Shown here one piece after another: positions 8,717 through 41,631 of a stretch of DNA of 41,631 bases. How positions within the stretch are numbered: the first letter of the stretch is position 1; each line of letters starts with the position of its first letter. Under the pieces are notes generated by a model that ran no database searches, was not told the origin of the DNA, and worked only from the letters and a program-made list of their open reading frames with translations. The position numbers and the translations under genes are program-made. This DNA comes from a virus, in IMG/VR virus record IMGVR_UViG_3300050821_002921, positions 1 through 41,631 of that record. One strand, 5' to 3'.

Positions 8717-11390
8717 TGGTTACAAATGCTGGGTCGAGATCACGCCAAGAAAAAGAGTTATCCAGGGATTTGTTACCACCACTGACGAACTCGCAGAAAA
8801 GCTACTCGAAATAGATTCGCGTGGCCGTGATGCCTATTTCGGCTGCGCGTCGTTCAAGACGCCAGATAATCGGCAAGGAGCCAATACTCTCGCGGCCAAG
8901 GCATTCTGGTTGGACATCGACGCTGGGGAAGGGAAACCATATGCTACCGCCGATGATGCAATTCAAGCATGTGACGCATTTTGCAATCGGCACAGCCTGC
9001 CTCTACCAGGTATCGTTCGGAGTGGAGGTGGTTGTCATGCTTACTGGATCCTTAGTAACAGCATTGACCGCGAGACATGGCTTGCAAACGCTGCTCACCT
9101 TAAACTACTTACAAACGCTTCGGGATTCTTTTGCGACCCATCGCGCACCGCCGACATCGCCTCCATCCTCCGTGCCCCTGGGACAAAAAATTATAAACTT
9201 TCCGTCCCCCGCCCTGTAGAAATTGATAGCGACGACGGTTGGGAGCCGGGTAATTTTTTAGGATTATTACAAGGTATAACTCCCCTATCGCCCCTCCAGA
9301 CTGGCAGTTTGGCTATAAATTCTCAAGGTGGAATTACCGGTTTACCAAGCAACGTAGATTTATTAGCAGGTACGAGCAAAGCCTTCGATTCAACTAAAGG
9401 TGTTGAAGCGGGCAGGCGCGGCAGTACGCAGCTTAAATATGCCGGTGAACTAGTGGCCAAGGGGCATCCTGAGGAAGAAGTTATCCGCTTGTGCTTGGAA
9501 TGGAACCAGCTATGCACACCACCGCAGGATGACAAGGAGGTAGTGCGCGTCGTACGCAGCGCATTCACCATGCACGCGCAGAAGCACCCGCCCGTACTGG
9601 CACCGGAAGAACTCCCAACATTGCCGGAGCTGCCCCACAATTTTAAGTGGGGGCCGCAGCAGCAACTACTGATAAAAGTTAAGGTAGCTCAGGACGACGG
9701 GAGCGAGAAGGAAGAGCTGAAAGTTGTATCGCCATACCCGGTGTACCTAGTTTCCATTATGAATAATGAAGGTGGCGCGCGTACTAACTCTTTCCTGTTC
9801 CGCCAATGGAGCGCGGTAGATGGCTGGAATGATTTCTCCATGAGTTCCGAGCAAATTAACTCGTCAGACTGGTATGCCCAGTGGGAAAAGAATGGTGGCA
9901 GTATCCACGCTGGCATGGATAAATATTTTAAAATCTACATAAGGGAGGCAATCATTATGTTGCGCGCGCAAGGGGAGACAACCCGGTATAGCCAGTTTGG
10001 CTGGAAAGAAAATGACAACGCTTTTCTGGTGGGCGATGTGCTGCTACGGAACTCCCAGCCGTCCAGGGCACACGGTACGGATAAGCTCGCAAACCTGATG
10101 CGCGGTATGGCGTTACCCAAAGAGGGGTCACTGGAAGAGTGGACAGCCACCGCGGACCAGTTTTTTGCGCCGGGGATGGAAGCCCACGGCTTCGCGTTGC
10201 TCTGCGGGTTCGCCGCGCCGCTGATCCATTTCTGTGCCGGTATGGGGGATGGTGGCGCTGTCTTATCGTTGATGAGTGAGGGCAGCGGCAATGGGAAGAC
10301 TCCTATAACTGAGGCTATCTCTAGTATATGGGGCGACCTGTCCTCCACTATCATGAGTGCTAGCTCGACCGAGAACAGCTTAATGGAGTCGGTGGTGCGC
10401 CATTGCCATTTGCCCGTGATCCGTGAAGAAATGAGTAAGGGTGACCCGGTCATTGTTGCGGAAAATATAAAGCGGTTCACTGTGGGTATCGACCGCGAGC
10501 GCCTCAACAAAGATGGCGCGGCTAAAGGTATATCCGAGAGGTATCAAACATTGTTGATATGTGTGTCCAATTTATCACTTTACGAAACCGTAGCTATGGC
10601 TGACCAGGCGGCTTCGCGCCGCATATTTGAGATAGATGTGAAGCGTCCTGACAGTGAAATATTTGACAACCTGGGCGGGTTAACCCGTGAGATGATGCGT
10701 TGCCGGGCTTATGCGGGACGTAGATACGCACAGCTACTCACCGCCCCGGGTTATCGCCAGTACTTGATAGAACACTTGACCGGCACGTCTAAAGATAAAG
10801 CAGGCAGCGTTATTATGAAATACCGCGGCGTTCTAGAAACTTCGGCGGAGCATCGTTTTATTGTGTGGCTTCTAGCCGCGGCTGAAGTGGCAGGGCGAAT
10901 AGTAGTTAACGATGGCATATTGCATTTCGACGTCGACCGGATAATGAATTGGGCAAAAGACCAAGCGTATGCCCGGGTACATGCTAAGGACGCCGACACT
11001 GCAGAGGGCAAACTGCAGCGCTTTCTTGGGGAAAATGTAGGCGGTATCCTGGTAGTGGCGGATGCGTTCACGCCAGGGAAGCCTTTACTCGTGCACACGG
11101 AACCTAAATACGCCTTGGTTGGCCGCGCCGAAATGAAGAGTAAGCTATTGTATATTTCCAGCGATGCCATGCGGCGCTGGTGCACAAAAAACAAATATCC
11201 TTTCCTCGGGCTGGGCAGGCACTTAGCAGAGCAAGGGATAATTCTCGAACGCAGTAAGCAGATTACGTTGGGCGCCGGCACTATGATCCCTTCGGCGCGT
11301 ACCTATTGCTGGGAAATCGACCTCGACCACCCTTCAATGAGTGGCACCCTGCAACAGGTGGCTAGTAACGTCATTCCAATAACTGCGTAA
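8676..11390 (+). CDS. AEP primase fused to DUF927-type helicase
   Basis: 904 aa. The archaeo-eukaryotic primase domain shows FWLDIDAGEG (D-x-D), RSGGGCHAYWIL (the conserved His) and an RAPGTKNYK segment, all within residues 1 to about 190. The middle links to a DUF927-like region and a P-loop ATPase with GSGNGKT (about 535) and acidic PVIREEM as motif B. This gives primase and helicase in one chain, as in many phages and plasmids. The start is GTG at 8676, because residues from there (FLSRVLPTDGYKCW) match the usual beginning of this primase family. It should work with the PolA at 2022. Confidence 0.93.
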   Translation: MHLKEFLSRVLPTDGYKCWVEITPRKRVIQGFVTTTDELAEKLLEIDSRGRDAYFGCASFKTPDNRQGANTLAAKAFWLDIDAGEGKPYATADDAIQACDAFCNRHSLPLPGIVRSGGGCHAYWILSNSIDRETWLANAAHLKLLTNASGFFCDPSRTADIASILRAPGTKNYKLSVPRPVEIDSDDGWEPGNFLGLLQGITPLSPLQTGSLAINSQGGITGLPSNVDLLAGTSKAFDSTKGVEAGRRGSTQLKYAGELVAKGHPEEEVIRLCLEWNQLCTPPQDDKEVVRVVRSAFTMHAQKHPPVLAPEELPTLPELPHNFKWGPQQQLLIKVKVAQDDGSEKEELKVVSPYPVYLVSIMNNEGGARTNSFLFRQWSAVDGWNDFSMSSEQINSSDWYAQWEKNGGSIHAGMDKYFKIYIREAIIMLRAQGETTRYSQFGWKENDNAFLVGDVLLRNSQPSRAHGTDKLANLMRGMALPKEGSLEEWTATADQFFAPGMEAHGFALLCGFAAPLIHFCAGMGDGGAVLSLMSEGSGNGKTPITEAISSIWGDLSSTIMSASSTENSLMESVVRHCHLPVIREEMSKGDPVIVAENIKRFTVGIDRERLNKDGAAKGISERYQTLLICVSNLSLYETVAMADQAASRRIFEIDVKRPDSEIFDNLGGLTREMMRCRAYAGRRYAQLLTAPGYRQYLIEHLTGTSKDKAGSVIMKYRGVLETSAEHRFIVWLLAAAEVAGRIVVNDGILHFDVDRIMNWAKDQAYARVHAKDADTAEGKLQRFLGENVGGILVVADAFTPGKPLLVHTEPKYALVGRAEMKSKLLYISSDAMRRWCTKNKYPFLGLGRHLAEQGIILERSKQITLGAGTMIPSARTYCWEIDLDHPSMSGTLQQVASNVIPITA

Positions 11391-11472
11391 ATTGCAGTTG
11401 CTATTACTTGTACCTATGGTAAAGTGCGTAGCTAAGGGCGGGGTTATAATATCATTTTAATAGGGGGAACCT
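11391..11472 (+). promoter_or_regulatory. Intergenic promoter candidate before cargo unit
   Basis: This 82-bp gap separates the replication block from the exported-protein/Wzy unit. A perfect TATAAT lies at 11445-11450, and GGGGGAA at 11463-11469 serves as the ribosome-binding site. No good TTGACA sits 17 bases upstream of the -10, so the promoter may be weak or activator-dependent. No terminator hairpin is seen. Confidence 0.5.
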
Positions 11473-12150
11473 ATGAAGTTTTCTAAATTAAAAGCGGCCA
11501 TAATGGTCTCTTTCCTTAGCTTATGCCTCTTCGTAGGGTACCAAGCAAAGTCAGCTATACAGCTTGGCGGGTCGATATTCCCTCTTACTTATATATCCAC
11601 CCCGAACATTAACACGACCGACGGTTTCAACCAAATGTTGTCGCTGCTCAACCAGCAGGTTGCGGCATTTCCTACTAACAAGCAAGGCGCAGCTTTCCAG
11701 ACCGCGCCGGGGTTGAACCCACTTATCCAATTATCCTACGTCGATATACCGGCTGAAAATGGTTTGCTGTCTCAAGGTAACGGCGTTACTAACAATATCC
11801 TTGTTGCTCCTACTACGGGCGTAACTATCTTTCCGGTAGGTGGTGGCGTTTCTATGTTTGCTTCCGGAGCGGAGACAACTGGTACGGGTGTTACAATCCT
11901 TTGTAGCCCAAGCGGTAATAAAATTATGACCCCTCAGGCGGCTTACCTGTTGAACAATCTCGTTATTGGCGGGTTCTTTTCGACTACCGCGGCGGTCACT
12001 TCCGCAGGTAATATCCCACTTGCATCAGCCTTCACCGCCGGTTGTCTATCCGGCGACGGCGTAGTTGCGTCGGGTAACAGCTCAACTAATATGGGTACCA
12101 TGACTGACCTGTTCATCAACTTTCCATACGTCACCTATACCGGTCGGTAA
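11473..12150 (+). CDS. Exported protein of unknown function (225 aa)
   Basis: A clear Sec signal peptide opens the protein: basic MKFSKLKAA, hydrophobic IMVSFLSLCLFVGY, and a cleavage-like site near QAKSAIQ. The mature part is low in charge and rich in Gly/Thr/Asn with alternating beta-like segments (GVTIFPVGGGVSMFASG), like fibre or surface-adhesin repeats. Two cysteines (CSPSG and GCLSG) could form a disulfide. It is followed two bases later by the Wzy-like gene. It is transcribed opposite to the virion genes, so a host-surface role is more likely than a structural one, but neither is proven. Confidence 0.75.
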   Translation: MKFSKLKAAIMVSFLSLCLFVGYQAKSAIQLGGSIFPLTYISTPNINTTDGFNQMLSLLNQQVAAFPTNKQGAAFQTAPGLNPLIQLSYVDIPAENGLLSQGNGVTNNILVAPTTGVTIFPVGGGVSMFASGAETTGTGVTILCSPSGNKIMTPQAAYLLNNLVIGGFFSTTAAVTSAGNIPLASAFTAGCLSGDGVVASGNSSTNMGTMTDLFINFPYVTYTGR

Positions 12151-12152
12151 TC

Positions 12153-13277
12153 GTGTACAGACTTGCGGGGGTCTTACACGCTATAGCACTAGCGACAGCA
12201 TTGTGCGTCCAGTCATTACATAGCCTTCTTGCGGGGGCTTGGATTCCATTCTACGCTACTGGGTGTGCTATACTTCTGGCCGAGTTCAAATACGAGCCAA
12301 AAAGAAACCTCCTCTGGTGGGCGGCGTTAGCATGGGCAATAGCACTAACATGCTCAACTTTCCTTATTAAACCAGTTCTTTCCGGCGCAGCTTATTATGT
12401 ATTGCTACTTCCATTGCCGACATTATTACTTTGCATGCACGAAAAAGCTCTGCATTGGTACATGCTTATTTTTAGTGCCGTCGTTATTCTTTATATCATA
12501 GGTGTCGACGGCCAGCTCCTGTTCGATGTCCACTACCATGGTTACGAAGCGGGTAATACGCGCACGTTGCATTCCTGGCCAGTGCTCGATCCCAACAATG
12601 CCGCAGCTATCATTTCGATTGCCGTCATCAGCTCATTATACGGCATGATGTACGTCAACACGGCGTGGGGCTGGTGGTTGTGGCCGACAGGACTTGCTTG
12701 GTACGCTACAGGAAGCCGGGGCGGTTTACTGGCCATTATGGTCGGGGTTTTTCTTTTACTATACCCTCGCATACGCCCGATGTTAGAACGGAAGCACTTA
12801 CCTATATTAGCCATGCTAGCCTTTATAGGAGGTATAAGTATAAGCGTCATCGGGCTCCACCTCTCCCCGGAATTCTTTCAATCCGTTGGCTTCCGCGCCG
12901 ATTTATGGATAACGACATGGCACATGATAGGTATGGAACCCTGGCGTGGTATAGGATTCGGGGAATTTTCCACTTACTATGCCCATTTAAGGAGCGAAGC
13001 CTATACCGCAGGATATTTCGCCCATAACGATCCCCTGCAATTCATCGCTGAGATGGGTATCCCGCTGGGGCTAGTGTTCTGGCTTATACCAATAGCTGTA
13101 TGGCGCACAACAGGTAAAGAAAATTATCTCGCGGCTGTATTGTTTTTTGTTATAGTATTGCAATCCTTTATCGAGTTTCAACTTTATGTTCCAGCTATAA
13201 GTATGCTCACCGGCTTGATACTGACTTACCATCACATTAACCGGCCGAAAGGGAAGAAAAAATGTTTACCGACTTGA
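12153..13277 (+). CDS. O-antigen polymerase/ligase-like membrane protein (Wzy/WaaL)
   Basis: 374 aa with about ten hydrophobic segments and a GTG start directly after the exported-protein gene. The C-terminal half has Wzy_C/O-antigen ligase-type features: GSRGGLLAIMVG (about 187), an outer loop with GIGFGEF and AHNDPLQFIAEMGIPLG (about 290), and closing membrane segments. Enzymes of this family polymerise or attach lipid-linked sugar repeats in the inner membrane. In a phage, the likely role is altering the host O-antigen to block superinfection or change serotype. A full-length, intact gene in a genome without an integrase is unusual. Polymerase and ligase cannot be told apart from sequence. 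Confidence 0.8.
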   Translation: MYRLAGVLHAIALATALCVQSLHSLLAGAWIPFYATGCAILLAEFKYEPKRNLLWWAALAWAIALTCSTFLIKPVLSGAAYYVLLLPLPTLLLCMHEKALHWYMLIFSAVVILYIIGVDGQLLFDVHYHGYEAGNTRTLHSWPVLDPNNAAAIISIAVISSLYGMMYVNTAWGWWLWPTGLAWYATGSRGGLLAIMVGVFLLLYPRIRPMLERKHLPILAMLAFIGGISISVIGLHLSPEFFQSVGFRADLWITTWHMIGMEPWRGIGFGEFSTYYAHLRSEAYTAGYFAHNDPLQFIAEMGIPLGLVFWLIPIAVWRTTGKENYLAAVLFFVIVLQSFIEFQLYVPAISMLTGLILTYHHINRPKGKKKCLPT

Positions 13278-13630: not shown

Positions 13631-14947
13631 CTAATCGTAACTCATCCCGGTCGCGTATCCCATCGCTTGTAACTGGGGCAGTTGCTTCTTCAGGCGGTTC
13701 GATATATCGGTCCGGTACATTAAAGAATTGGGGATCTCGACTTTCTTGATAGCTTTGTACGCTGCCTTCTTCGCTTGCAATACGGTCTCCCCCGTCCCCG
13801 TTACCGTCATGATGTAATCGCCGGCGGTTACCAAACAGGGCTGCGTACTTATTGTCCCACCCTTCTTTATCGGTGCCGTGCCCAGCATCATCTGGCACGG
13901 GTGATAGTCCTGGTGGGGGACTAGGGGGACGTTGTAAACCGGTATCTCCTCCACGTCGCGCCCCGTCAGGCGGGAGTATGGGTAGTCCGGTATCGACAGC
14001 ACTACGCCGACCGCTACTTCGTCTAACCGGCGGTTTCGCGCGTCCTTGCCGTTTGCCAGGTCCATTAGCCATTCGATTGAATCCCCTTCATGCAGCGCCT
14101 GCTGAATGTTCACTGTCGGGTAACCAAACCGGCAAGTAAACTCAAGCGGCCACGGCGTGCCCTTTTCATCTATAATACAGTTTACGTCAATATCCCCGAT
14201 ATGTCCAGTCTTGGCAAGGGCTTCCTCCAGTGGCGCAAGCACTTTCTTAGCCAGCGATGACTTGGCGACGTAGCGGATTACCGTACCCTGCTCACCGGTG
14301 GCAACCCCAAGGTCGTCGTTCATTAGCTTTTTAAATTCCCAGTTTTCTTCCCAGCCGCGGTTGAATCCGCCCGGGCCAAACCAGCTCGCCACGGCCATTT
14401 CTATACCGGGCGTGAACTCTTGGAGCATGAAGGGCGGTTTTAACTTACCCAGCTTTTTCCACCGCTCGAGCATAAATACCATATCCTGCGGGGATTTTGA
14501 CACGTAAGAAAGTGCCTTGTCCGGGTTGTCGCCCGCGGGCTTAGACACAAAGCGCTGGTCTTGCTTCTTCACGTAGGCAATGGCCTTATCGTAGTTGTTA
14601 AACATGGTGTAGGGGAGCGTGTCGATGCCGTGGTCAGCGAAGATTTTCTGCCCGTATTCCCTGTCAATTTCCCATTTGGCGGATTCCTCGGTGGGGCCGA
14701 TGACAACACAGCCGTCGCGCCGCCAGGCGTCGGCTTCCTTCATGTACAGGTTATTCTGCGACAGGATGATGATGTCCGCCCACTTCACAAACGGCCGGTA
14801 CTCGCGGACTATCTTGGTCAGCCCCTTGCCAACTTTTGCGGTGTGTGGGGTATCCTTGATAAAGCGGCGCACGTCATGGCCATCGGTTACCGCGCGCCAT
14901 GCGAGATCGGTCAGCTCGCCATCCTGGTCTATAAAAAGAACTTTCAC
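13631..14947 (-). CDS. PurD-like ATP-grasp ligase
   Basis: 438 aa, the usual length of phosphoribosylamine-glycine ligase. The N-terminal Rossmann-like lobe (KVLFIDQDGELTDLAW) leads to VVIGPTEESAKWEIDREYG. The ATP-grasp core shows FVSKPAGDNPDKAL, FMLQEFTPGIEMAV and LEFTCRFGYPTVN (about 272), which parallels the EFNCRFGDPE signature of PurD. The C-terminal lobe (LVTAGDYIMTVTGTGETVLQAKKAAYKAI, then MYRTDIS) matches the PurD C-domain. PurD joins glycine to phosphoribosylamine in purine synthesis. Here it sits at the tail of the virion operon, with no other purine gene, and has diverged in loops such as DNPDKA, so a different amine/acid substrate is possible. GTG start overlapping the upstream stop. 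Confidence 0.85.
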   Translation of the reverse strand: MKVLFIDQDGELTDLAWRAVTDGHDVRRFIKDTPHTAKVGKGLTKIVREYRPFVKWADIIILSQNNLYMKEADAWRRDGCVVIGPTEESAKWEIDREYGQKIFADHGIDTLPYTMFNNYDKAIAYVKKQDQRFVSKPAGDNPDKALSYVSKSPQDMVFMLERWKKLGKLKPPFMLQEFTPGIEMAVASWFGPGGFNRGWEENWEFKKLMNDDLGVATGEQGTVIRYVAKSSLAKKVLAPLEEALAKTGHIGDIDVNCIIDEKGTPWPLEFTCRFGYPTVNIQQALHEGDSIEWLMDLANGKDARNRRLDEVAVGVVLSIPDYPYSRLTGRDVEEIPVYNVPLVPHQDYHPCQMMLGTAPIKKGGTISTQPCLVTAGDYIMTVTGTGETVLQAKKAAYKAIKKVEIPNSLMYRTDISNRLKKQLPQLQAMGYATGMSYD

Positions 14948-19947: not shown

Positions 19948-20475
19948 CTATTTTCTGGCGTTAAGTAGCGCGGCGATATGCGAGGGTATGCCCTTAGATA
20001 AGTCGAGCTGGATATTGGCGTCCTTCAGGCACCGCCACCACTTCACCGAAAACCGGCCAGTGCATAAGGTAGAGAGGCGATAACAAGTATTTAGGTCATT
20101 TAAGTCATCATAATTAATATGCAGCACACCGTCCACCGCGCGTAACTCCTCTAGTTTCTCGTTGAGCAGGTCAACATCTATGAGATGCGCTAGTCCTAAC
20201 TTTTTGAGGCTACCCTTCACATCCTGCGGTTTTCGATGGATGCATACTGCACGCGCAAATGGCATAAGTTTTTGCATATCCCGCCAGTACATGACCAGCC
20301 CCGTATCTACGATGCCGCGGTTAGGCTGCATAAGATAATCAGCTATGGGGGGCAGCGCGAGGTACTCCGCCAAGGGGTCATGCTTACACACCCACTCTCC
20401 GTAGGTCAGAAATTTAGACAGCCAGACGGTACGCGACCGTGGCAGAGCGAAGATTATAAAGGGGGGGCGCTTCAT
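19948..20475 (-). CDS. Sulfotransferase-like protein (175 aa)
   Basis: Two hallmark elements of P-loop sulfotransferases are visible. The first is an N-terminal FALPRSRTVWL (residues 9-19), like the PAPS 5'-phosphosulfate loop. The second is AVCIHRKPQDVKGSL (R81, S89), like the 3'-phosphate-binding RDPxDxxxS motif. The protein is short for the family, so it may be a minimal phage form. The start at 20475 (ATG) overlaps the lipoprotein stop as ATGA; a TTG at 20487 is the alternative. The substrate is unknown; virion, tail or cell-surface sugar are possible targets. Binding of a nucleotide other than PAPS cannot be excluded. Confidence 0.7.
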   Translation of the reverse strand: MKRPPFIIFALPRSRTVWLSKFLTYGEWVCKHDPLAEYLALPPIADYLMQPNRGIVDTGLVMYWRDMQKLMPFARAVCIHRKPQDVKGSLKKLGLAHLIDVDLLNEKLEELRAVDGVLHINYDDLNDLNTCYRLSTLCTGRFSVKWWRCLKDANIQLDLSKGIPSHIAALLNARK

Positions 20476-20624
20476 CCTATATCCCAATCTACAGGGATGG
20501 GGAATTCTATATCAAGGCAGTAACCCTCGAATCCAGAAGGACAAAGATTTGCGCAGGCGGTTAAGGCGAGCAGTGCTGCAACTGCTGAAGCACAGCACGT
20601 TGCTGCTCGAAATAGTCTGGACAT
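20472..20624 (-). CDS. Small lipoprotein, o-spanin (Rz1-like) candidate (50 aa)
   Basis: The peptide has a basic start (MSRLFRAATC), a hydrophobic core and the lipobox LTAC at residues 21-24, so the mature lipoprotein of 27 residues would begin at Cys24 (CANLCPSGFEGYCLD...). Its position directly after the holin candidate and endolysin genes is where outer-membrane spanins are found. Pro content is modest (three in the mature part). Two further cysteines could dimerise it. The stop overlaps the sulfotransferase-like ATG. The most likely inner-membrane partner is the gene at 21635. Confidence 0.75.
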   Translation of the reverse strand: MSRLFRAATCCASAVAALLALTACANLCPSGFEGYCLDIEFPIPVDWDIG

Positions 20625-21914: not shown

Positions 21915-23204
21915 CTATTGTATTACATATTCTGTGACCGCAACAAATCCTGTACCGCCGGCACCGCCGGTTTTTCCTACTCCTGCCGCCGCTTCTACAG
22001 CACCGCCGCCGCCACCGCCCGTATTTGTTACGCCATTATTCCCATTTGATGCCGCTGCACCCGTCAATCCTGCCGCTCCGCCGCCAATAGATGAGGACCC
22101 GCCTGCCCCAGAAAATGACTGTAAAGCAGTATTACCATTCGTCGCACCGCCACCTGCCGCCCCCGTCCCGTTAAAATCCCCCCCACTGGCGTTTTGTCCT
22201 GCGCCGCCTGCTGCTGAAGCGTTATTCCCTCCTTGGCCGCCTAGCCCGCCTAGACAAGTGACAAGTGACCCTACCGAGCTAGTACCCCCCGTACCACCTG
22301 TCCCACCCGAATTAGATCCAGCTGTCCCGCTACCACCAATAGTAACCGCCTGCGATGCTCCTATAGTCGCTGCTGAAGCAATAAGTTTAGATTCGCTACC
22401 GGCAGCACCGCCGCCTCCAGCGGAACCTGATGACGTGCTCACTCCTCCACCGCCGCCTCCCCCGCCGATACACCATAATTCAGCATAAACCATTCCAGTC
22501 GACGGTGTATAAGTACCCGTCGAAGTAAATATTTGACGTTTTACCGTAATGATAGCTTTTAAAGCGGAAGAATTAAATGCTGTCACCGTCACGTCGGTAG
22601 GAAACGCCGCACTTCCCGTATTATTCATTTTTATTGTGTTAGCGTTCATCTTTGCCAATGACGCATTGGCAATAACACTAGGATTTATAAGGTCAAAAAA
22701 CGTACCATCAAAATAGAATACATACGCGTTTCCAGTAACTATCTCACCTCCTACTAAAGCCGTTAATCCTCCGCCGTTCTCAACCCGTACCGCTGTCGCT
22801 GCAAGGCCATTTACTGCCAAGGTTGTTGCGCCGGTATTGGTAAAGCCAGCTATGCCGGTAACAATATTGCCTGCCGTCAAAGCAAAATTTGATGGTACCA
22901 CCGTTGCTAGCGTCTGCGCGTTTCCAGACCCCCCAGTCGTCCCACCCACATAAATGGATGCTCCACCGAGCGAAGGCGCGAGAGGAATTGTCAACCCGGT
23001 CAGTGAGGTTATATCATTATTTGCGCCATTATGAGCGCCGTTCGTATTGGTGTTATTGACTATCTGATTAAAGTTAGCCATCACCTGTGTGGCGTCAGCA
23101 AGCGAACCGTTGGTTAGATTGTAGGGGAGAGAGTTGACAATAGTAGCGCTAGCCGTTGTGGCGAACAGCGCCAGCGCAGCAAATAAGGAAACAATCTTTT
23201 TCAC
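21915..23204 (-). CDS. Tail fibre/adhesin with signal-peptide N-terminus, Gly-rich
   Basis: 429 aa. The N-terminus is a textbook Sec signal (MKKIVSLFAALALFATTASA). It is followed by LPYNLTNGSLADATQVMANFNQIV, a tail-fibre anchor I recognise from other phages that carry the same odd leader. The middle is beta-rich. Residues from about 245 are glycine-rich with runs such as WCIGGGGGGGG, suggestive of a polyglycine-II adhesin tip, and end VAVTEYVIQ. It sits directly after the tail hub gene. A signal peptide on a virion protein is unexpected; it may be cleaved, or may be a hydrophobic assembly anchor. Confidence 0.75.
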   Translation of the reverse strand: MKKIVSLFAALALFATTASATIVNSLPYNLTNGSLADATQVMANFNQIVNNTNTNGAHNGANNDITSLTGLTIPLAPSLGGASIYVGGTTGGSGNAQTLATVVPSNFALTAGNIVTGIAGFTNTGATTLAVNGLAATAVRVENGGGLTALVGGEIVTGNAYVFYFDGTFFDLINPSVIANASLAKMNANTIKMNNTGSAAFPTDVTVTAFNSSALKAIITVKRQIFTSTGTYTPSTGMVYAELWCIGGGGGGGGVSTSSGSAGGGGAAGSESKLIASAATIGASQAVTIGGSGTAGSNSGGTGGTGGTSSVGSLVTCLGGLGGQGGNNASAAGGAGQNASGGDFNGTGAAGGGATNGNTALQSFSGAGGSSSIGGGAAGLTGAAASNGNNGVTNTGGGGGGAVEAAAGVGKTGGAGGTGFVAVTEYVIQ

Positions 23205-41120: not shown

Positions 41121-41513
41121 ATGTCTATCAATATTGATGAACTTACTATCGGTGAAGCAAAAGAATTAAGTTGCATGTTCGCACCACCAACCAAACTAAA
41201 GGAAACGGTTGGGAGTTGCGATTCTATGATTGGTAAAAAATGCATTTTTCGTAGCTATGCCTCTGGTGTGCATTATGGTGAACTTATCGAGAAGGATGGT
41301 AAGGAAGTCATCATCAAAAACGCCCGTCGTTTGTGGTATTGGGAAACCACTAATAAAGGGATTTCATTAAGCGAGGTTGCCCTTACTGGCGTTGCAAAGG
41401 ATAGTAAAGTTTGTGCAGCAGTAGATGCCATTTGGCTTGAAGCCATTGAGATTATTCCTTGCACAAAAGGGGCTATCAAAAATATTGAGGCTCAAGATGA
41501 ATTTAAAGCATAA
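41121..41513 (+). CDS. Hypothetical early protein, possible SH3-like barrel (130 aa)
   Basis: AAAGGAGG gives a strong ribosome-binding site. The first 35 residues (INIDELTIGEAKELSCMF) look like a helical lead. The rest reads like a small beta barrel: GKKCIFRSYASGVHYGELIEKDGKEVIIKNARRLWYW, then ISLSEVALTGV. The phrase KNARRLWYWE with GVHYGELI is common in phage proteins of unknown function. Its end overlaps the ATG of the glycine-repeat gene (41497). Confidence 0.75.
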   Translation: MSINIDELTIGEAKELSCMFAPPTKLKETVGSCDSMIGKKCIFRSYASGVHYGELIEKDGKEVIIKNARRLWYWETTNKGISLSEVALTGVAKDSKVCAAVDAIWLEAIEIIPCTKGAIKNIEAQDEFKA

Positions 41514-41631
41514 AGTTTTAAATTCTGGCTATGGCTATGGCTCTGGCTATGGCTCTGGCGGTGGCTCTGGCTCTGGCTATGGCTCTGGCGATGGCTCTGG
41601 CTCTGGCTCTGGCGATGGCTCTGGCTCTGGC
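41497..41631 (+). CDS. Glycine-repeat protein, N-terminal part (gene cut by window ends)
   Basis: The frame begins MNLKHKVLNSGYGYGSGYGS and continues Gly-X to the window end, open at the 3' end and in frame with base 1. The ATG lies 17 bases inside the preceding gene, with AGGCTCAAG upstream as a weak ribosome-binding site. On the circular molecule it joins the left part (1-147). The only non-repeat residues are the first ten. No function assignable. Confidence 0.6.
   Translation, partial: MNLKHKVLNSGYGYGSGYGSGGGSGSGYGSGDGSGSGSGDGSGSG
41524..41631 (+). repeat. GGC-NNT hexanucleotide microsatellite, right block
   Basis: About 18 hexamers of GGC plus TCT, TAT, GAT or GGT, running to the end of the window and continuous with the left block (1-144) if the molecule is circular. 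The true copy number is uncertain because short-read assembly commonly collapses such arrays. Confidence 0.9.

Follow-up and report, generated by a model that had tools for sequence, protein, structure and literature searches.

The DNA analysed here (the window) comprises 41,631 bases and constitutes a virus record of IMG/VR. Its plus arm carries replication genes, namely a family A polymerase, an SNF2-type helicase and a DUF927/PriCT primase, and its minus arm carries the structural, lysis and packaging genes. The plus arm ends with two genes, designated EXP and WZY, which directly follow the primase/helicase stop codon at 11390. Facing them, in convergent orientation, are a PurD-like ATP-grasp gene and a gene that is probably the small terminase. 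The slot that the pair occupies, flanked by the replication arm on one side and by packaging genes on the other, is hypervariable (Table 1). An earlier note on this DNA had described a separate two-gene unit at this place, and both open reading frames are indeed found on the plus strand after the primase/helicase gene, WZY starting with a GTG two bases past the EXP stop codon. Judging from their homologies, neither is a chance open reading frame, since WZY matches the Wzy_C family and the related phage G001 has a homologue of each gene in the corresponding position. The unit had also been credited with its own TATAAT; the hexamer is present in the leader, but no acceptable -35 element was found for it and a promoter scan does not list it, and a promoter belonging to the unit itself is possible. 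In agreement with the statement that the phage carries no visible integration module, a search with the tyrosine integrase family PF00589, the one model used for this purpose, found none in the 41.6-kb window (the record may be incomplete), while the same search detected integrases in three related phages. A lysis role for the unit was considered and rejected, as endolysin and spanin candidates are located elsewhere. Both ends of the record carry 12-nt tandem repeats (6-177 and 41490-41631), perhaps reflecting a circular genome cut inside a repeat, and a perfect 44-nt repeat lies near the left end (149-192 and 353-396).

Table 1. Positions in the window of the features of the EXP-WZY unit and of one late-arm gene
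Feature	Position	Strand	Basis or remark
Leader, 82 nt	11391..11472	+	Between primase stop and EXP
TATAAT hexamer	11445-11450	+	Within leader
Shine-Dalgarno AGGGGGAA	11462-11469	+	Ahead of EXP
EXP, 225 aa, exported fibre/decoration-like protein	11473..12150	+	ORF, ATG 11473; homologues in G001, L223, L225
Predicted Sec signal peptide, approximately residues 1-28 of EXP	11473..11556	+	Sequence, crude signal rule; cleavage site not certain
EXP N-terminal module, GGSIFPLTYI...DGFNQMLSLL	11557..11676	+	Similar to start of slot proteins c34a/c29a of relatives
EXP C-terminal domain	11713..12147	+	Common to WZY partners in L223 and L225
Cys144 of EXP	11902-11904	+	Invariant (EXP and G001, L223, L225 partners)
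Cys191 of EXP	12043-12045	+	Invariant (EXP and G001, L223, L225 partners)
WZY, 374 aa, integral membrane enzyme of the Wzy_C family, putative O-oligosaccharyltransferase	12153..13277	+	GTG start; Wzy_C, 7TPG profile match, tree
Putative WZY active-site stretch	12717..13025	+	Alignment with 7TPG
Arg189 of WZY	12717-12719	+	Aligned with R191 of 7TPG
Arg248 of WZY	12894-12896	+	Aligned with R265 of 7TPG
His291 of WZY	13023-13025	+	Aligned with H313 of 7TPG
Tail-fibre-type gene of late arm with signal peptide; possible second substrate	21915..23204	-	PHROG tail match 1e-23

The first gene fits the exported protein of the earlier description: EXP is rich in Thr, Ser, Gly and Asn, has a Sec-type N-terminus, and gave no match in Pfam, PHROGs, NCBIfam or PDB. 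No alternative start codon would remove its signal peptide, and the counterparts in G001, L223 and L225 carry one as well; here and below, signal peptides were judged by a home-made crude rule and genes by mechanical ORF calling. The identification of EXP as a type IV pilin was rejected, the protein having no GFTLIE-type motif and a signal of Sec type instead, and no glycosylation sequon was identified in it. The module following the signal is similar to the start of the slot proteins c34a/c29a of related phages (BLASTP 5e-5), with shuffle controls giving 2/400 for EXP and 0/400 for its G001 homologue; hhalign returned E 8.8e-5 at a probability of only 60%, and an HMM built by pooling the N-termini of all slot proteins failed to pick up EXP, the match being confined to the c34a/c29a type. 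These comparisons are moderate evidence that the EXP N-terminal module resembles fibre-type slot proteins of the relatives, some of which match PHROG tail or virion families. The earlier note had counted homology of both genes to tail parts against its own interpretation; such a likeness was found in part, for EXP, through this module. Single-sequence AlphaFold models of EXP (pLDDT 35) and WZY (pLDDT 45) were too poor for use.

WZY matches the Pfam family Wzy_C (PF04932) at 58.9 bits (E 6.4e-16; curated cut-off 31.7 bits) and its G001 homologue at 58.1 bits. A Pfam scan of WZY to E 1 gave Wzy_C alone, with no PglL_A (PF15864), Wzy_C_2 or TPR match. In a comparison with a WaaL structure, which had been suggested earlier, a profile of the window and G001 enzymes matches the solved WaaL structure 7TPG at 1.4e-6, with the Arg/Arg/His positions of the two aligned. 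The same motif in Escherichia coli WaaL (R215, R288 and H338) is listed as important (PMC3643930). R248 and H291 of WZY fall within a long loop (about aa 235-297) and are invariant in nine phage enzymes, and position 189 is variable, being Lys or Gln in other phage members.

The WZY profile was then searched in 369 Gammaproteobacteria, where it matched almost only Wzy_C proteins of 640-740 aa. Type IV pilin-like genes, several of them MSHA-like, lie near most of these proteins (L137-L156): among the best 20 matches, 14 have one within 5 kb, the distance being no more than 700 nt in 11 of them, compared with 0/20 within 5 kb for control Wzy_C proteins of 413-483 aa. The pilin-linked class, which has the HND motif in common with WZY and is its best match by profile and tree, scores 58-83 bits with the phage profile, versus at most 31 bits for WaaL/Wzy-sized proteins. 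A quick tree with long branches, in which SH-aLRT is the sole support measure (83 and 87 for the pilin-linked clade), places the phage proteins of the window's clade inside one where 19 of the 24 cellular members are pilin-linked within 5 kb, versus 0/31 outside; the members are related, so the p value of the pilin association overstates independence. By both profile scores and tree, WZY does not group with the WaaL/Wzy-sized proteins of 413-483 aa. The pilin association and the upstream-signal association described below were exploratory: each emerged from the data before it was tested, and the controls were drawn from the searches that had revealed it. The cellular class carries a C-terminal extension, with a TPR match in most of the ten proteins scanned, whereas the phage enzymes (350-381 aa) lack the extension; the O-oligosaccharyltransferase (O-OTase) activity of the cellular class is itself inferred from gene context. 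Of the earlier description of WZY as an O-antigen polymerase-like membrane protein, the assignment to the Wzy/WaaL superfamily of membrane enzymes stands, but an O-antigen polymerase of serotype conversion is not supported by its grouping with the long pilin-linked Wzy_C proteins.

Related phages were compared at the same slot. A terminase scan yielded 11 relatives, among which G001 alone has the EXP-WZY pair, in the same place (37% identity, E 9e-57 for WZY; 35%, E 6e-20 for EXP); other relatives hold fibre-type proteins there, some matching PHROG tail or virion families. A wider set was anchored on the PurD-like gene (13631-14947, minus strand), which adjoins the probable small terminase gene and is strongly conserved in the phage group, with 54-70% identity across six genomes; of the 369 viral loci that it matched, 80 were kept. 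The slot in these 80 loci ranges from nearly empty to 4.7 kb and may hold fibre-type genes, a DNA methyltransferase-like gene, an HNH-like protein or a tyrosine integrase. The integrase occupies the slot in L060, L062 and L097, and the wider phage group therefore probably includes temperate members. Contigs related to the window are also present in MAGs and in genomes of Paraburkholderia isolates, although these finds do not establish which host the window's phage infects; three of the Paraburkholderia contigs (L122, L123 and L124) have PurD-like, fibre-module and structural genes in common with the phage group and are likely prophages in those isolate genomes.

Neither EXP nor WZY gave a useful match in 50,697 phage records, and the pair matched nothing in PHROGs or from isolated phages. 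The wider Wzy_C family escaped scans of viral and genome collections that used one or two query sequences; the core alignment A6 alone recovered it. The core-alignment scan, whose pattern picks the HND motif only and describes that class rather than all phage Wzy proteins, revealed short Wzy_C genes in 13 loci beyond G001, representing about eight lineages and lying mostly in structural operons, among portal, major-capsid or terminase genes. The enzymes of the window, G001, L222, L223 and L225 form one phage clade inside the pilin-linked class (SH-aLRT 99), and those of L227, L228, L230 and L235 group apart (SH-aLRT 84). The latter four also mostly adjoin exported structural-type genes. The enzymes of L223 and L222, at 42% and 40% identity, are closer to WZY than the G001 enzyme is (35% in this comparison, 37% in the one above) despite 64% identity between the window and G001 terminases, and the gene thus appears, from these identities, to move between phages.

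The gene directly upstream of the enzyme bears a signal peptide in six of the seven scorable lineages (window/G001, L223, L225, L228, L230 and L235, the L230 case being read from the ORF list), the exception being L222, a member of the WZY clade. The background rate of signal peptides is 5.9% of genes of 100-360 aa (binomial p 3e-7 for 6/7), and a within-locus control counted 5/6 upstream genes with a signal versus 7/67 other genes (Fisher p 3e-4). The upstream genes of L223 and L225 encode homologues of the EXP family (E 3e-8 to 8e-19), that of L225 being linked to EXP through G001; for the C-terminal domain that these two proteins have in common with EXP and its G001 homologue, the significant pairs give E 2e-8 to 8e-19. 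The search for the pair in other phages that the earlier note had called for is thereby answered: besides G001, the unrelated L223 and L225 have an EXP homologue upstream of a WZY homologue. The EXP proteins of the window and G001 are 55% identical in the N-terminal module and 31% in the C-terminal domain, and the latter domain of G001 is 39% identical to that of the L223 partner, a pattern in keeping with an N-terminus particular to the lineage and fused to a C-terminal domain that moves together with WZY. An attempt to equate the EXP C-terminal domain with the small exported proteins of L228 and L235 failed (hhalign probability 3%). MT836207.1 (L236), a tblastn match labelled as a faecal phage, was dropped; it resembles a bacterial polysaccharide gene cluster.

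The substrate-specific O-OTases TfpO (PilO), TfpM and PglS are, like WZY, Wzy_C-superfamily membrane enzymes encoded beside an exported protein, and are often encoded near their substrate (PMC12645811). TfpO and TfpM are without PglL_A (PMC12645811), as is WZY, and the acceptor tag of PglS, printed between two cysteines (PMC12645811), loosely recalls the C144-C191 stretch of EXP. The acceptors of these enzymes are type IV pilins or ComP in bacteria, whereas EXP, the candidate acceptor here, is a fibre-like, non-pilin phage protein. The general O-OTase PglL, many genes for which adjoin a pilin gene (PMC3643930), belongs to the same superfamily and has the reaction type proposed here for WZY, but possesses PglL_A and Wzy_C_2, neither of which was detected in WZY.

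Two findings have the best support: WZY belongs to a class of enzymes resembling pilin OTases, and an exported partner recurs beside it. The substrate-specific O-OTases are laid out in the same way, and for this reason we propose that the unit is a mobile acceptor-plus-O-OTase cassette in which WZY glycosylates the exported fibre-like EXP in the periplasm, an explanation whose chances we put at about even. EXP would be made with its Sec signal and exported to the periplasm, where a Cys144-Cys191 disulfide may stabilise it; WZY would take a lipid-linked glycan of the host and transfer it to EXP, the acceptor encoded next door. Since EXP resembles fibre-type proteins of the relatives, the glycoprotein would be destined for the virion, after lysis, or for the cell surface. 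Several points count against such a cassette. EXP is no pilin and no sequon was identified in it, L222 is without an exported partner upstream, position 189 varies, and the phage enzymes lack the C-terminal extension of the cellular class; moreover, virions are assembled in the cytoplasm and EXP is exported, so that their joining is unexplained. A limited literature search found no description of a phage-encoded protein O-OTase with a dedicated acceptor. If the proposal is true, there are phages that use sugars of the host to glycosylate structural proteins which they themselves encode and export; this bears on receptor binding and virion recognition, and they supply short enzymes (350-380 aa) with non-pilin acceptors for glycan-protein coupling.

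Type IV pilin is a common phage receptor, and the main rival explanation is that WZY modifies the host surface, for example by glycosylating type IV pilin or altering LPS, and limits adsorption of competing phages; EXP would then be exported for a purpose of its own, perhaps as a fibre fragment that masks the receptor. We consider this less likely than the cassette, although the nearest cellular enzymes are pilin-linked and the unit sits with the replication arm, apart from the late genes. Phage-borne surface-polysaccharide polymerases that alter host polysaccharide do exist, as reported for WzyPh1 of Acinetobacter baumannii prophages (PMC9241936) and Wzy-beta of Pseudomonas aeruginosa (PMC4815439). 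WzyPh1 resides in prophages and acts on the host capsule, whereas the window has a conserved exported partner and no integrase that was found by PF00589; long-term conversion is for the latter reason unlikely. Host surface modification leaves unexplained why exported partners recur, why they are homologous across phages and why the enzyme genes of other phages sit in structural operons. The pilin-linked grouping and the exported structural-type neighbours in unrelated phages likewise mean that the earlier interpretation, an O-antigen polymerase excluding superinfecting phages, is not the one best supported; the unit may still block superinfection.

Considerably less probable is a role in serotype conversion, with WZY polymerising or ligating O-antigen on the LPS of the host. 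WZY shares its Pfam family with WaaL and its profile matches 7TPG, but the WaaL-sized homologues are more distant from it than the pilin-linked class in score, the tree puts the window's clade elsewhere, and no other glycan-pathway gene adjoins WZY; serotype-converting temperate phages, in addition, carry the integration module for which PF00589 found no counterpart in the window. Slightly more doubtful still is an incidental linkage, in which EXP simply adds to the variable fibre or decoration genes of the slot and WZY is an unrelated passenger: the slot is hypervariable in the relatives (fibre-type genes, integrases, a DNA methyltransferase) and L222 shows the enzyme without an exported partner upstream, but in three phage lineages the gene immediately preceding a WZY homologue is a homologue of EXP, and the upstream gene is signal-bearing in nearly all lineages scored.

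A possible second substrate of the enzyme is the product of the late-arm gene listed in Table 1. Several fibre-type proteins of the phage group carry signal peptides, this product among them. The homologues of that gene in G001, L064 and L116 have a signal peptide too, and in other relatives the protein starts directly with this module, at residue 1. Cysteines make up 1.15% of signal-bearing fibre and slot proteins versus 0.43% of signal-less ones (rank test p 0.0008, for rows that are not independent), and this higher content suggests that the signal-bearing proteins are really exported. Two cysteines flank the fibre module in three signal-bearing proteins. The question thus raised is why certain fibre genes of phages should encode a signal peptide in the first place. 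A tentative generalisation, in which we place rather low confidence, is that unrelated phages send fibre or decoration proteins through Sec to the periplasm, where phage-encoded Wzy_C enzymes add lipid-linked glycans of the host to them; the glycoproteins would join the virion after lysis, which would thereby gain host-like sugars.

Finally, a possible sulfotransferase-like gene lies on the minus strand of the window at 19948-20487 (PHROG hydrolase match 2e-16, weak Pfam sulfotransferase match), and in phage L226 a clear Sulfotransfer_1 gene (730-1563) stands directly after a Wzy_C fragment.
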